Source: Metallosphaera tengchongensis (GTDB lineage: Archaea; Thermoproteota; Thermoprotei_A; Sulfolobales; Sulfolobaceae). From it: DNA of 64,000 nucleotides. Of this stretch, positions 8,775 through 61,127 are shown in pieces. Position 1 is the first letter of the stretch. The number at the start of each line of letters is the position of its first letter. The translations under genes were made by a program, and so were the position numbers. Where the stretch lies: NCBI RefSeq assembly GCF_013343295.1, contig NZ_CP049074.1:911501-975500 (forward strand), written 5' to 3'. The notes below the pieces were generated by a model that had not been told where the DNA came from, did not search any database, and worked only from the letters and a program-made list of their open reading frames with translations.

Positions 8775-10421
8775 ATGCGCTACACCAAGAGATATTTAAT
8801 ACTGGTCCTTGTCATAATAACTCAATCCATATCAGCTATATTTCTTCGAGACATAGTTCCAATCCCTTTATTTGGAACGCTAACAGAGCTCCTCTTATTT
8901 TCGTTATTTCTCTTCATGGACGGCGTTTTAGCCCCTCTTCTGTTGGACTCAGTAATAGCCAGTATAGCATTTCCACTGACAATTGTTACTATTCTAATTC
9001 TACTCCAAAGGGATCTAAGCCCTGAATATATACTTCTATATTATACTGGCCTAGCAGTAGCCATAAGTTTCCTAGTATTGCTCAGATCCCTATGGGAAAT
9101 AACGTCTAGGTCCTGGAGTAGAAGAGGATTAAAGGTCGACATTAGAAGTCTCTTACTGTCAACCATATTTGTTGTGGGCACTTTCCTTCTCTCCAAATCT
9201 CCCTTTCTCCTCATAGGATCAATAGTGGATTTGGTGCTTATTTCGTTTTTAAGAAACGTATCCATGATCCCCCTCTCGGCACTATCTTGGTTAGCTACAC
9301 CATACCTCTTATTACAGGAGCCCCAGCCGAGTAGTAAGGGACTATGTATAGGTGAAATAAAAATGAAACTATTGAGGAATCTAGTGCCTGGAATATTCCA
9401 AGGAAATTACAGGTATAAATGGATCCCCTCAGAAGGGGAGTATTGCGTAGACTACTCGAAGCTCAAAAATTACAACTCGACTATAGTGGGTTCTAGTGGA
9501 TATGGTAAGTCCACTGTAGCTAAGAAAATTGTTTCGAAACTTAATGCGAATTATATAATATTTGATATCCATGGGGAGTATTCCGATATTCCTGGAGAGA
9601 GAATAGATGTTTCAAAGACAAGTATAAACCCTCTCTCACTTTTTGGGAAATCCCCAAAGCAGCGATCGTTAGAGGTAGCTACAATGCTCAAATCAATTTT
9701 TAATCTCGGCAGTTTGCAGACCATGGAGATCTCAAACCTGCTACTGGAGGCATACGAGGAAAAGGGAATTTATGAGGAGGATCCAGACAGCTGGTTGTTA
9801 CGAACGCCAAACTTCAGGGACCTAATAATTCTTATCGAGAAAAAGAAGAGTTTGTATAATAATTCCCAAATGATTAACAGACTTGAGGGATTGGAGTCAT
9901 ATATTAGATTCCTTGACTCAAATATCTTTAATAGTGATTATAATTTCAATAAAATTTTCAATAATAAAATTATACTAGATTTTTCAAATATCTCTGTATC
10001 ATACATAAAATATATTTTAATAGAGTCTATTCTTAATTTAATTTTTAGTAGATTTAATGAGGAAAAATCTGATAAATTACGAAACCTTATAGTAATAGAC
10101 GAAGCACCGTTCATATTATCCAGAGAGAGCGGTAGAATGTTGGTGGATAGAATATTTGCTGAAGGGAGAAAGTTTGGTTATGGAACCATGATTATTTCTC
10201 AGTACTCCAAGGAATTAGATAAGGTTATAAATAACTCGGCAATTGTATTATCTCTAGGTATGAGAGAACCTAGCGAATTGGAGTATATGTCTAAGGTAAT
10301 TGGTGGAGAGCACGGCGAAGCGCAAAGGACCGTGTACGAGATGATTATGAGGCTTGAAAGAGGTTTAATTGCAACAAGAGATTTAACAACCAGCGATGTA
10401 ATAGTGTTTCGTCTAAATTAG
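8775..10421 (+). CDS. membrane-anchored HerA/VirB4-like ATPase
   Basis: The 548-residue protein has two parts. Residues 1 to about 175 contain five or six hydrophobic segments (for example LILVLVIITQSISAIFL and LSTIFVVGTFLL). A P-loop ATPase follows, with Walker A GSSGYGKST (about residue 238), the segment FDIHGEYSD characteristic of HerA/DUF87 ATPases, and Walker B LIVIDEAPF (about residue 438), then a sensor-like IISQYSKEL. Such ATPases usually form hexamers that pump DNA or protein. No NurA nuclease gene is adjacent. The downstream genes (a charged protein and pcna1) follow within a few bases, so a role in DNA translocation at the membrane is an attractive but unproven inference. Confidence 0.82.
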   Translation: MRYTKRYLILVLVIITQSISAIFLRDIVPIPLFGTLTELLLFSLFLFMDGVLAPLLLDSVIASIAFPLTIVTILILLQRDLSPEYILLYYTGLAVAISFLVLLRSLWEITSRSWSRRGLKVDIRSLLLSTIFVVGTFLLSKSPFLLIGSIVDLVLISFLRNVSMIPLSALSWLATPYLLLQEPQPSSKGLCIGEIKMKLLRNLVPGIFQGNYRYKWIPSEGEYCVDYSKLKNYNSTIVGSSGYGKSTVAKKIVSKLNANYIIFDIHGEYSDIPGERIDVSKTSINPLSLFGKSPKQRSLEVATMLKSIFNLGSLQTMEISNLLLEAYEEKGIYEEDPDSWLLRTPNFRDLIILIEKKKSLYNNSQMINRLEGLESYIRFLDSNIFNSDYNFNKIFNNKIILDFSNISVSYIKYILIESILNLIFSRFNEEKSDKLRNLIVIDEAPFILSRESGRMLVDRIFAEGRKFGYGTMIISQYSKELDKVINNSAIVLSLGMREPSELEYMSKVIGGEHGEAQRTVYEMIMRLERGLIATRDLTTSDVIVFRLN

Positions 10422-57585: not shown

Positions 57586-58091
57586 CCCACAGTCCTACCT
57601 ATAACGTGGGCCAACCTGATTGGTTCTGGATACTTAGAGACTAATTGATACCTCTCTATTATTCCCTTGGCGTACCTAAGTTCTAGGTCGGACTCTATAT
57701 ACACCGGTCCGTTCCTTGTTTCAATTCTTACTAAGTTCTTTATGAAGTTTAGTATAATCTCCTTCCTTCTATCATGGAAATGTTTTTCCAGGGCTAGCTC
57801 TACCTTTTGTAGATTAGGCTTCCCTCCATAAAATAGAATGTAGTTCCTCCTAGGTACAATATAATTGAAACCGGCGTAAGTAATTCCGTCAAATATTGTT
57901 GTAACCCCCCAGCTAATCCTCTCAAACACTTCAGTGCCGTCATCCCCGTCAACTGTAATGAAGTCTATCTTCACGTCCTTAAAGTACAGGTCTTCATAGA
58001 GGGTTACAATAAGGGGAGCCTTTCCTCTCCTTCCCTTATAGGAAAGGGGGAAGAAACCGTCATCTACGCCAGATATCAACAAATCTCTCAT
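57564..58091 (-). CDS. DUF99 family protein
   Basis: A 175-residue archaeal protein of the DUF99/UPF0215 type with the opening [30 protein letters not shown] and a His/Arg-containing end ([11 protein letters not shown]). An endonuclease V-like fold has been suggested for the family; activity is not known. It overlaps orc1-1 by 32 bases and is therefore probably translated from the same message. Confidence 0.75.
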
Positions 58092-59250
58092 CGCTCTCCA
58101 ACAAAGCCTTAAGAACTATGTTACTGTCTACAGCTAACGTAACTTCCTTAGTTTTTCCATACCTACCCCTATTAACTACCTTGGCTGAAATTATTCCCAG
58201 CATATCCAACTCATTAATAATATCACTAGCCCTCCTTTGAGTGACGAATTCAGATCCTGTAAAGAGGGCCTGGCCCTTATAGATCTCGTAGATCTCTCCA
58301 GTAGTCAGACTGTCATGTTTAGATAACCCCTTTAGAATAGAGAGGAGGACTAACTTAGAGTGAAATGGGAGAGTTGCTATGACCTCGTATACCCTATCCC
58401 TCTCAATTTCTATTCTGGCCTTCTCAACTTCCTCATGAGAAACCTCCCTTTTTTTCTCCCTCTCCGCAATCTCTCCAGAAACTCGAAGTAGATCTAAGGC
58501 CCTTCTGGCGTCTCCGTGGTCTCTGGCTGCAAGGGCTGCGCAAAGCCTTACTATGGAATCTGAAATCACCCCCTCTCTGAAGGCCATGTTAGCTCTCTTC
58601 TTAAGTATCTCTTCCAGCTGGTCAGCATTATAAGGAGGGAAGACCAACTCTTCCTCACCAAGGCTACTCCTTACTCTAGGATCCAATCCATCAATAAATT
58701 TCACGTCATTAGTTATACCTACAATGGACACCTTGCTTTTATGTATGTCATAGTTGACCCTAGTTAATTTGTACAAGATGTCGTCCCCATGTTTTTTAAC
58801 CAGTGCGTCTATTTCATCCAAAACTATAATTATGTTTTTATCAGTCCTTTCTAATAATTTCACTATTCTCCTATAAAGCTCAGCTGTTGAGAGCCCTGTA
58901 AATGGGACCTTGTTCCCCAATATCTCAATGATATCTGCCAAAATCCTATACGGTGTATCACTCTGCCTAGAATTGACATATATGTAATCAAAATTTTTAA
59001 TTTTCTTCTGAAGATTTGCCAAAACATATTTAGCTACAGCCGTCTTTCCTGTCCCGGTCAACCCATAAATAAACGTATTACTCGGTCTTTCCCCTCTGTA
59101 TAACTGAACTAAAATACTAGCGAGCTTCTTAATCTCATTTTCCCTATGCGGGAGTTCCTCAGGGACGTAATCAGGAAGAAGGTACTCTCGATTTTTGAAT
59201 ATGAAGGATTCCCTTACCGAAGACAGCACTTCGTCTATTATATCACTCAT
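58060..59250 (-). CDS. cdc6-1: origin recognition protein Orc1-1/Cdc6-1
   Basis: AAA+ initiator of 396 residues matching the Sulfolobus Orc1-1 (Cdc6-1) protein: [13 protein letters not shown], Walker [11 protein letters not shown], Walker [11 protein letters not shown], sensor 1 GITND, the initiator-specific [20 protein letters not shown] and the C-terminal winged helix ([21 protein letters not shown]). It binds ORB elements in the adjacent origin and loads MCM. The origin lies directly upstream of its start, as in Sulfolobus. Confidence 0.96.
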
Positions 59251-59320
59251 ACACTAGGTTGCTTCAACTAGAGACACTATAAACGTTAGTGCCTGTTTAA
59301 TTATAACCGGGGAGTAAAAC

Positions 59321-59342
59321 ACCCCTCTATTTCCACTGGAGA
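59321..59342 (-). repeat. ORB1 origin recognition box
   Basis: On the minus strand the core reads CTCCAGTGGAAATAGAGGGG, matching the Sulfolobus ORB consensus (dyad plus G-string). It is identical over 22 bases to ORB2. Confidence 0.88.
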
Positions 59343-59361
59343 ACCTAAAGAATTCTCATGG

Positions 59362-59383
59362 ACCCCTCTATTTCCACTGGAGA
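59362..59383 (-). repeat. ORB2 origin recognition box
   Basis: Identical over 22 bases to ORB1, spaced 41 bases from it, about four helical turns, so Orc1 would bind both on the same face. Confidence 0.88.
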
Positions 59384-59471
59384 GCATAATCTGTCAAGGT
59401 TTGGTTAGTAAGGGAGAGTTTATCGGTTTGTATAAAGCGGAACTTAGACAGAGTCTAGGCCAGACATAGGA

Positions 59472-59495
59472 GTTTCCACTGGAAACTGAGGGGTA
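59472..59495 (+). repeat. ORB3 origin recognition box, inverted
   Basis: Plus strand GTTTCCACTGGAAACTGAGG followed by GG and T. The dyad GTTTCC-act-GGAAAC is perfect. The orientation is opposite to ORB1 and ORB2. Confidence 0.88.
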
Positions 59496-59523
59496 GATCT
59501 GCCCTACTGTGTGACCATGCGTA

Positions 59524-59535
59524 AATTTATAAATT
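59524..59535 (+). promoter_or_regulatory. TATA box of tRNA-Ala
   Basis: AATTTATAAATT centred 27 bases before the tRNA, the expected archaeal distance. Confidence 0.6.
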
Positions 59536-59555
59536 GAAGAGGTTGATGTATTAAT

Positions 59556-59629
<74 letters not shown>

Positions 59630-59894
59630 CTAAAGATGTTTATTTCACAATTAATTTTGGGTAAAAACTAGTTAATACTTAACCTAAAGCCTAGGCTAGA
59701 CTTGACGATATTTATATATCGAAATTATGTGGCTACAGAAGGAGAATTGATATATAACGTAGTCAACCTCGTTAAGGTGGAGATTGGAAAGTATACTCAC
59801 ATTGTTCCTCTTCTTTCTCAACTTGATCTTGGATCCCACAATAAGAGTTAAGGAGGTAAAATGGAACTATAGTTCTTCTGAAGTAATGTCCACC

Positions 59895-61127
59895 TCATTG
59901 TATCCAAAAGATAGGCCTAGTTAGGTGCCTGTACTTCCTAGTCTGATAAAGTCCCAATGAAAGTTTCCTGTCGACCTCTCTAACTTGCTTCTCACCATGA
60001 AATCTGAAACCACAGCGCCTGCATCGAAAACCCTTCCCTCTCCCCAAAGATTCAGAGGAACCGTTGCAGGTGGGACATTTAGGGTTTAGATATACTAGGT
60101 CCCTCTTCAGATCGATGACTTCCATCCTCTCAGCCTCCAAAATTAACCCGAATTTTCTCGAGGGCTTTAATGCACCATAGACCCTGATTACGTCTCCGGT
60201 CTTAAGCAGTCTTGATGCGGCATTTAACTCCCCGGTTTCTTTGTAAACAATAACTGGAACTTTATCTGTAATAATTTCACTGTCTCCGCCCTCCAACACT
60301 CTCGTAGACTTTACAACCAACTCTTCTCCTCCACTTTGATAGGGATGGGAGCCTAGGATCTTGAGATGGTCATCGGATCCCTGATTTGTCCTGAAAATTA
60401 GATATCCTTCGATTTCCTCATTAAACCGTAACATTTGGACTCCCTTTAGCAGTATGTCCGGTTCAGTTCCTCTTAGTCCGAAAAAGACCGGGTCTTTACC
60501 GTGGGATAGAATCATAGGTGATTTCTCCACATAGTCAACGTTGGCGTAGACCTTAGGGAAAAACCTTTCGTCGTACTCTACGAGGGAGTTTAGATCCAAG
60601 TCCCGCCTCCTCTCCCAGTTGGTCTCTTTCCTGTAAGTCAGTAGCTCAAATGTCCCTTCTGTACCTTGAAATCCAATTGCTGCGAGGGATCCTATAACTC
60701 CTCTTCCTCCAATCCAAGAGATTTGGAATTTGTTCAAAACTATCTTAAGATACTCAGGAGTAACCACGTCTGAAACGGCTTTCCAGTAAAAAGAATTCAG
60801 GGATTCCCTATTTCCCCTTACTACGGCGACTCCAGGAGACCTCTTATAGAGCGGTCCCTTAGATATCTCATGAACGTAGCTAAGTGATTCGTTCCAGATT
60901 ATATCGAGAAGTTCCTTTTGATCCCTATCGGTCTCTATGGTTAAGGAGACCGCAGCGTTCCCTCTGGTTTTCCAAGGTATATTTGGGTTTAGCCTGACCA
61001 GGTTGGGATACCCAACCAACTTCACGTTCAATTTCTCAAGCTTTTTGATAAGAATAAATGAAAAATGTGTTGTACAGCCTCTTTCTGGGGAGTCGTGGTC
61101 GTCAATACCTATGTAATACCTGCTCAT
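59895..61127 (-). CDS. tiaS: tRNA(Ile2) 2-agmatinylcytidine synthetase
   Basis: Modifies C34 of tRNA-Ile2 with agmatine so that it reads AUA. The 410 residues begin YYIGIDDHDSPERGCTTHF (catalytic acidic motif), then IPWKTRGNAAV, GGRGVIGSLAAIGF, an OB-like domain and a C-terminal zinc ribbon (CPTCNGSS...CRRCGFRFHG). The gene is downstream of the RAM-domain gene by 11 bases. Confidence 0.93.
   Translation of the reverse strand: MSRYYIGIDDHDSPERGCTTHFSFILIKKLEKLNVKLVGYPNLVRLNPNIPWKTRGNAAVSLTIETDRDQKELLDIIWNESLSYVHEISKGPLYKRSPGVAVVRGNRESLNSFYWKAVSDVVTPEYLKIVLNKFQISWIGGRGVIGSLAAIGFQGTEGTFELLTYRKETNWERRRDLDLNSLVEYDERFFPKVYANVDYVEKSPMILSHGKDPVFFGLRGTEPDILLKGVQMLRFNEEIEGYLIFRTNQGSDDHLKILGSHPYQSGGEELVVKSTRVLEGGDSEIITDKVPVIVYKETGELNAASRLLKTGDVIRVYGALKPSRKFGLILEAERMEVIDLKRDLVYLNPKCPTCNGSSESLGRGKGFRCRRCGFRFHGEKQVREVDRKLSLGLYQTRKYRHLTRPIFWIQ

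Follow-up and report, generated by a model that had tools for sequence, protein, structure and literature searches.

A probable oriC1 in Metallosphaera tengchongensis and a conserved dyad that may be associated with Sulfolobaceae replication origins

Anatomy of the origin region

The interval between the orc1-1 and tRNA-Ala genes of Metallosphaera tengchongensis raises the question of whether it is oriC1, the main origin of the chromosome, and whether all of its parts belong to described classes of origin element. As an origin it is ordinary and of a well-known type; the part of the locus that deserves specialist attention is a dyad beside ORB1. The window, meaning the whole stretch of 64,000 nucleotides that was analysed, is G000:C1:911501-975500 of one 2,176,897-bp contig, and three ORBs sit in it between orc1-1 and tRNA-Ala, arranged as follows:

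58060-59250, minus strand: orc1-1 (cdc6-1), 396 amino acids, AAA+ protein with a C-terminal winged helix (Pfam, TIGR02928 and PDB matches)
59277-59289, minus strand: TATA-like sequence, putative orc1-1 promoter (inspection of the sequence by eye)
59304-59317, minus strand: conserved dyad TTACTCCCCGGTTA adjoining ORB1 (also written TTWACTCCCCRGTWAA or TAACCGGGGAGTAA)
59321-59340, plus strand: ORB1, its G-string facing orc1-1 (same as ORB2 through 59342)
59362-59381, plus strand: ORB2 (same as ORB1 through 59383)
59384-59472, no strand: central segment separating the facing ORBs (42% GC), where MCM may be loaded
59426-59436, minus strand: ucm, putative UBP site, TTTATACAAAC, also read as GTTTGTATAAA (10 of 11 positions as in the published ucm)
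59475-59494, minus strand: ORB3, opposite in orientation to ORB1 and ORB2 (59473-59494 with its full dyad)
59556-59630, plus strand: tRNA-Ala(GGC), conserved neighbour of oriC1 (ARAGORN)
60225-60238, plus strand: weaker copy of the dyad, TAACTCCCCGGTTT, one mismatch, within tiaS, beyond the origin as seen from orc1-1

The ucm, the dyad on the ORB1 side and its weaker copy in tiaS are absent from an earlier note on this DNA, much of which otherwise stands. The adjoining gene is orc1-1 as that note had it, one of three orc1 genes in the genome: its product has Pfam Cdc6_C and Cdc6_lid and TIGR02928 matches, and aligns over its full length with S. solfataricus Cdc6-1 (PDB 2QBY_A, E 1e-162). ORB1 (59321-59342) and ORB2 (59362-59383) are indeed identical over 22 bases and start 41 bp apart, ORB3 does face the opposite way, and tRNA-Ala lies on the far side. 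A central segment is present between the 22-bp units of the facing ORBs, at a length of 89 bases rather than the 88 given. This segment is not AT-rich (42% GC, versus 41% for the window).

The ORB pattern ACCCCTCWRTTTCCASTGGA has exactly three matches in the 2,176,897 bp, all at the origin, and allowing up to three mismatches adds two scattered sites, no more than the three such sites of the reversed control; the cluster is thus not due to chance. A looser ORB pattern was uninformative genome-wide, its count being equal to that of the control, and cumulative GC skew within the window takes no clear turn at the origin.

The ucm, a published essential origin motif, lies roughly halfway between ORB2 and ORB3 and differs at one position from the published 11-mer, which was compared via the oligonucleotides of PMC12141716. 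The protein expected to bind it is encoded in this genome: a UBP query from S. acidocaldarius, located in a scan of the stretch where Saci_0847 should lie and matching the published UBP structures (PDB 9EFD/9EFE/9EFF, E 1e-41), has an orthologue at G000:C1:894879-895190 (57% identity). A perfect copy of the ucm 11-mer (ATTATACAAAC) at positions 9850-9860 of the window (minus strand), far from the origin, probably belongs to a larger set of UBP sites across the genome.

Reading of the region as oriC1

Several ORBs including a facing pair, an adjoining orc1-1 gene and a ucm between ORB2 and ORB3 in a genome that encodes UBP are what is looked for in a Sulfolobales oriC1. In S. islandicus, firing of oriC1 needs each of ORB2, ORB3 and ucm; Orc1-1 recruits MCM, UBP binds ucm and contacts MCM, and the duplex unwinding element (DUE) tolerates mutation outside ucm (PMC12141716). 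The sites, their order and polarity and the genes are established here, and from the likeness of this anatomy to that of S. islandicus, where the loading and release steps were shown or proposed (PMC12141716), the course of binding, loading and firing can be sketched. Orc1-1 from the adjoining gene would bind each of the three ORBs as a polar monomer; the facing ORB2 and ORB3 would recruit MCM hexamers to the central segment; UBP on the ucm midway between them would help MCM to leave the origin, so that replication proceeds in both directions; and the dyad, at its near-fixed register beside ORB1, would be the binding site of a host protein. The region is almost certainly to be explained in this combined way, as an Orc1-1-dependent oriC1 with a UBP-aided bidirectional start and a putative host-protein site in the dyad.

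The AT-rich duplex unwinding element of a Sulfolobales oriC1 was not found in the central segment (42% GC). AT-richness was not taken as defining for oriC1, given the range among Metallosphaera origins (24-43% GC in the central segment, with 43% in G009, similar to the segment here) and the tolerance of the DUE in S. islandicus. The lack of AT-richness would suit an ORB-bearing regulatory stretch of orc1-1 with no active origin, but such an interpretation is highly improbable, because the locus has every element that S. islandicus requires in vivo (ORB2, ucm and ORB3), with order and polarity unchanged. The locus thus offers a clean Metallosphaera case of an oriC1 that has a ucm and lacks an AT-rich central segment, which agrees with the DUE sequence being largely dispensable outside ucm.

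The oriC1 regions of Sulfolobus and Saccharolobus (S. islandicus, S. solfataricus and S. acidocaldarius) likewise have three ORBs (ORB2 and ORB3 as a facing pair on either side of ucm), an adjoining orc1-1 and an encoded UBP, but their central segments are very AT-rich, whereas here the GC content is 42%, ORB1 and ORB2 are spaced by 41 bp and all three ORBs are exact to the consensus. The oriC-1 of Sulfodiicoccus acidiphilus, annotated independently in the same place (PMC6647314), shares with the present origin its ORBs (ACCCCTCTGTTTCCACTGGA), a UCM, a position upstream of cdc6 and the dyad, but differs in that ORB1 and ORB2 are about 61 bp apart and no tRNA-Ala was found within 1.5 kb.

Conservation of oriC1 across the Sulfolobaceae

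By comparison, the identity of the region as oriC1, which the earlier note had proposed, is well supported. The orc1-1 loci were taken from 30 of the 31 family genomes and 29, that of Sulfodiicoccus acidiphilus among them, were scored for layout; 28 of these 29 have an origin with ORB3, ORB2, ORB1 and the dyad upstream of orc1-1. The layout, with two direct ORBs, one inverted ORB and the ucm midway between the facing pair, is conserved over about 10 genera, and the ucm was called in 27 of the 28 origin loci (that of G001 would need more than one mismatch). In the remaining locus (L040), of Sulfolobales archaeon HS-7 (G004), the 1 kb upstream of orc1-1 was found to hold neither an ORB nor a ucm or dyad, which suggests that its oriC1 was lost, moved or diverged.

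ORB1 is the best kept of the three, while ORB2 drifts to five mismatches and ORB3 to four. Spacing of ORB1 and ORB2 varies from 39 to 70 bp among the relatives, so phasing is not conserved and the argument that the two sites occupy the same helical face fails. The tRNA-Ala gene, within 1.5 kb of the origin in most loci, is a family trait and not peculiar to this genome. Short ORFs resembling the N-terminus of SSV1-type integrases reach or enter tRNA-Ala on its outer side in six loci (L014, L024, L025, L026, L031 and L032), and the sole one tested, in L031, matches Pfam PF07935 (E 1e-26); such ORFs running to or into the gene suggest that integrating elements use the tRNA-Ala beside oriC1 as an attachment site.

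Position and distribution of the dyad

With an incomplete locus holding ORB1 and the dyad (L039) added, 29 origin-bearing loci could be compared for dyad register. In all 29, the dyad stands in one orientation or the other, with slight variation, on the orc1-1 side of ORB1. In 27 loci its start is 5 bases past the ORB1 GGGG and in one 4 bases past it; in the last (L015) it has the same position with one mismatch outside the regular expression. The switch of CCCC and GGGG between copies was considered as an invertible spacer and rejected, being merely the whole site in either orientation.

Each family genome has between 1 and 37 copies of the dyad core (TWACTCCCCVGTWA), whereas the reversed control occurs 0-1 times. 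Among 189 listed exact copies of the dyad in 30 genomes (G017, whose list is incomplete and which holds an integrated conjugative plasmid, being left out of the count), 103 are no farther than 6 kb from orc1-1, orc1-3 or whiP, where about three are expected: 26 near orc1-1, 33 near orc1-3 and 44 near whiP, with about one expected for each. None of the 189 is in the neighbourhood of orc1-2. Nominal P values for this clustering overstate its significance, since related genomes are not independent, but the spread of the dyad across about 10 genera stands independently of them. Members of the whiP family were identified from their position beside ucm and from winged-helix matches; the one in G020 starts a few bases past the published Sulfodiicoccus oriC-2, which is directly upstream of whiP (PMC6647314).

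M. tengchongensis itself has seven exact copies of the dyad. Two dyads of this genome outside the origins (L076, position 3125; L079, position 3204) are upstream of long ORFs that by inspection resemble GH15 glucoamylases. Outside the Sulfolobaceae but within the same order, copies number as many as 16 in genomes of two families, f6 and f4, with none in the controls; six f6 genomes (G045, G079, G102, G064, G086 and G092) have 6-16 copies each.

Both oriC2 and oriC3 are flanked by dyads at about 0.5-2 kb. At oriC3 of most genera, ucm has one dyad about 1.1-1.2 kb to its left and another about 0.9-1.4 kb to its right. The left dyad is within a coding gene, where it encodes LTGEL, and nearly all of 24 sequences from 24 genomes use the codons TTA-ACY-GGG-GAG-TTA (exceptions are TTG for the first leucine in four g11 genomes, and GGG in place of GAG in the genome of the window), while neighbouring leucine codons vary freely. 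For seven genera all to have GGG, GAG and TTA, the nominal P is about 1e-11 under codon usage of the same genes and assumed independence, a value that serves as a guide only, as the genome of the window departs at one codon and the lineages share history. The constraint on this dyad appears to act on the DNA. At oriC2 of M. tengchongensis, both dyads are past the ends of genes, in gaps between convergent genes.

Possible roles of the dyad

We tentatively read TTWACTCCCCRGTWAA as an undescribed origin-associated element of the Sulfolobaceae, at which one host protein might act at oriC1, oriC2 and oriC3 and at sister sites on plasmids, and rate this at a little under an even chance. If it is true, the dyad protein would be a common mark on, or a coordinator of, three origins that each depend on an initiator of their own, and a real dyad of this kind would be a testable handle on the near-synchronous firing of origins with Orc1-1, Orc1-3 and WhiP.

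The dyad might instead be an operator in the orc1-1 promoter, serving a regulator or auto-regulation and not the origin. It is just upstream of the TATA region of orc1-1 in nearly all loci, another copy in this genome precedes a gene that by inspection is GH15-like, and in M. yellowstonensis (G010, L016), where the whole block from the ORBs to tRNA-Ala is flipped with respect to orc1-1 and has dyads at both ends, the promoter keeps a copy although the origin has been inverted away from it. The copy beside ORB1 in that genome moved along with the origin, however, and the coding position at oriC3 and the convergent positions at oriC2 mean that the dyad is not simply an operator, which leaves this reading unlikely. 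The same inversion, bounded by dyads on the segment from ORB1 to tRNA-Ala, would suit a recombination hot spot at which origins moved as dyad-bounded cassettes (compare the extrachromosomal-capture model), as would the dyads that frame orc1-1 in G008 and G009 and the 12-22 near copies, mostly TAAACTCCCCAGTTTA, on pNOB8, pKEF9 and pHVE14. Motifs of this sort on conjugative plasmids have been called recombination motifs. Scars would decay, yet the oriC3 codons are nearly unchanged in 24 genomes and the register with ORB1 is near-invariant; with its sequence under constraint the dyad is not obviously a scar, and a single inversion was observed. The bounded inversion and the plasmid copies allow for a recombination role, but the hot-spot account as a whole is rather improbable.

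Two described palindromes are also to be compared with the oriC1 dyad. According to PMC3718332, which cites Robinson 2004, palindromic C2 and C3 sequences occur at oriC1, and the dyad might be one of these, bound by Cdc6-2 or Cdc6-3. As described, they are, like the dyad, palindromic non-ORB elements of oriC1. The same paper reports oriC2 and oriC3 to be without C sequences, whereas dyads flank both, and no dyad is near orc1-2 itself; the identity is on the whole rather improbable. The sites of SegB (TCTAGASTCTAGA; PMC12284271) resemble the dyad as rare palindromes clustered near segAB and the oriC1 region, but differ in sequence and are mostly inside genes. The part of the window from 48.5 to 60.0 kb holds no match to TCTAGASTCTAGA with up to three mismatches, and a role of the dyad or origin as a centromere-like SegB site was rejected on this ground.

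Dyad-like sequences on plasmids and viruses

Near matches to the dyad number 22 on pNOB8, 15 on pKEF9 and 12 on pHVE14 (controls 2, 1 and 0, respectively), most of them in the sister form TAAACTCCCCAGTTTA. This plasmid motif and the dyad have in common a ACTCCCCAGT core and palindromic A/T flanks, but the outer flanks differ and each plasmid has many copies. Exact TAAACTCCCCAGTTTA is absent from 19 of the 31 genomes, and its chromosomal occurrence is patchy and often clustered, as expected of integrated elements. A stretch of G017 (L080 and L081, G017:C1:2690000-2729000) with 13 exact copies of the dyad core, many as GTTTACTCCCCAGTAAAC, is apparently an integrated conjugative plasmid. PlrA/ORF80 of the pRN plasmids was considered as a candidate binder of the dyad; on pRN1 the end of orf80 holds a single weak copy. 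When the origin was compared with plasmids by BLAST, the matches listed covered the tRNA part only. The exact dyad is present in 37 viral stretches; two of the viral contigs that have it are presumably ATV and STSV1, and most of the other matches may be due to chance.
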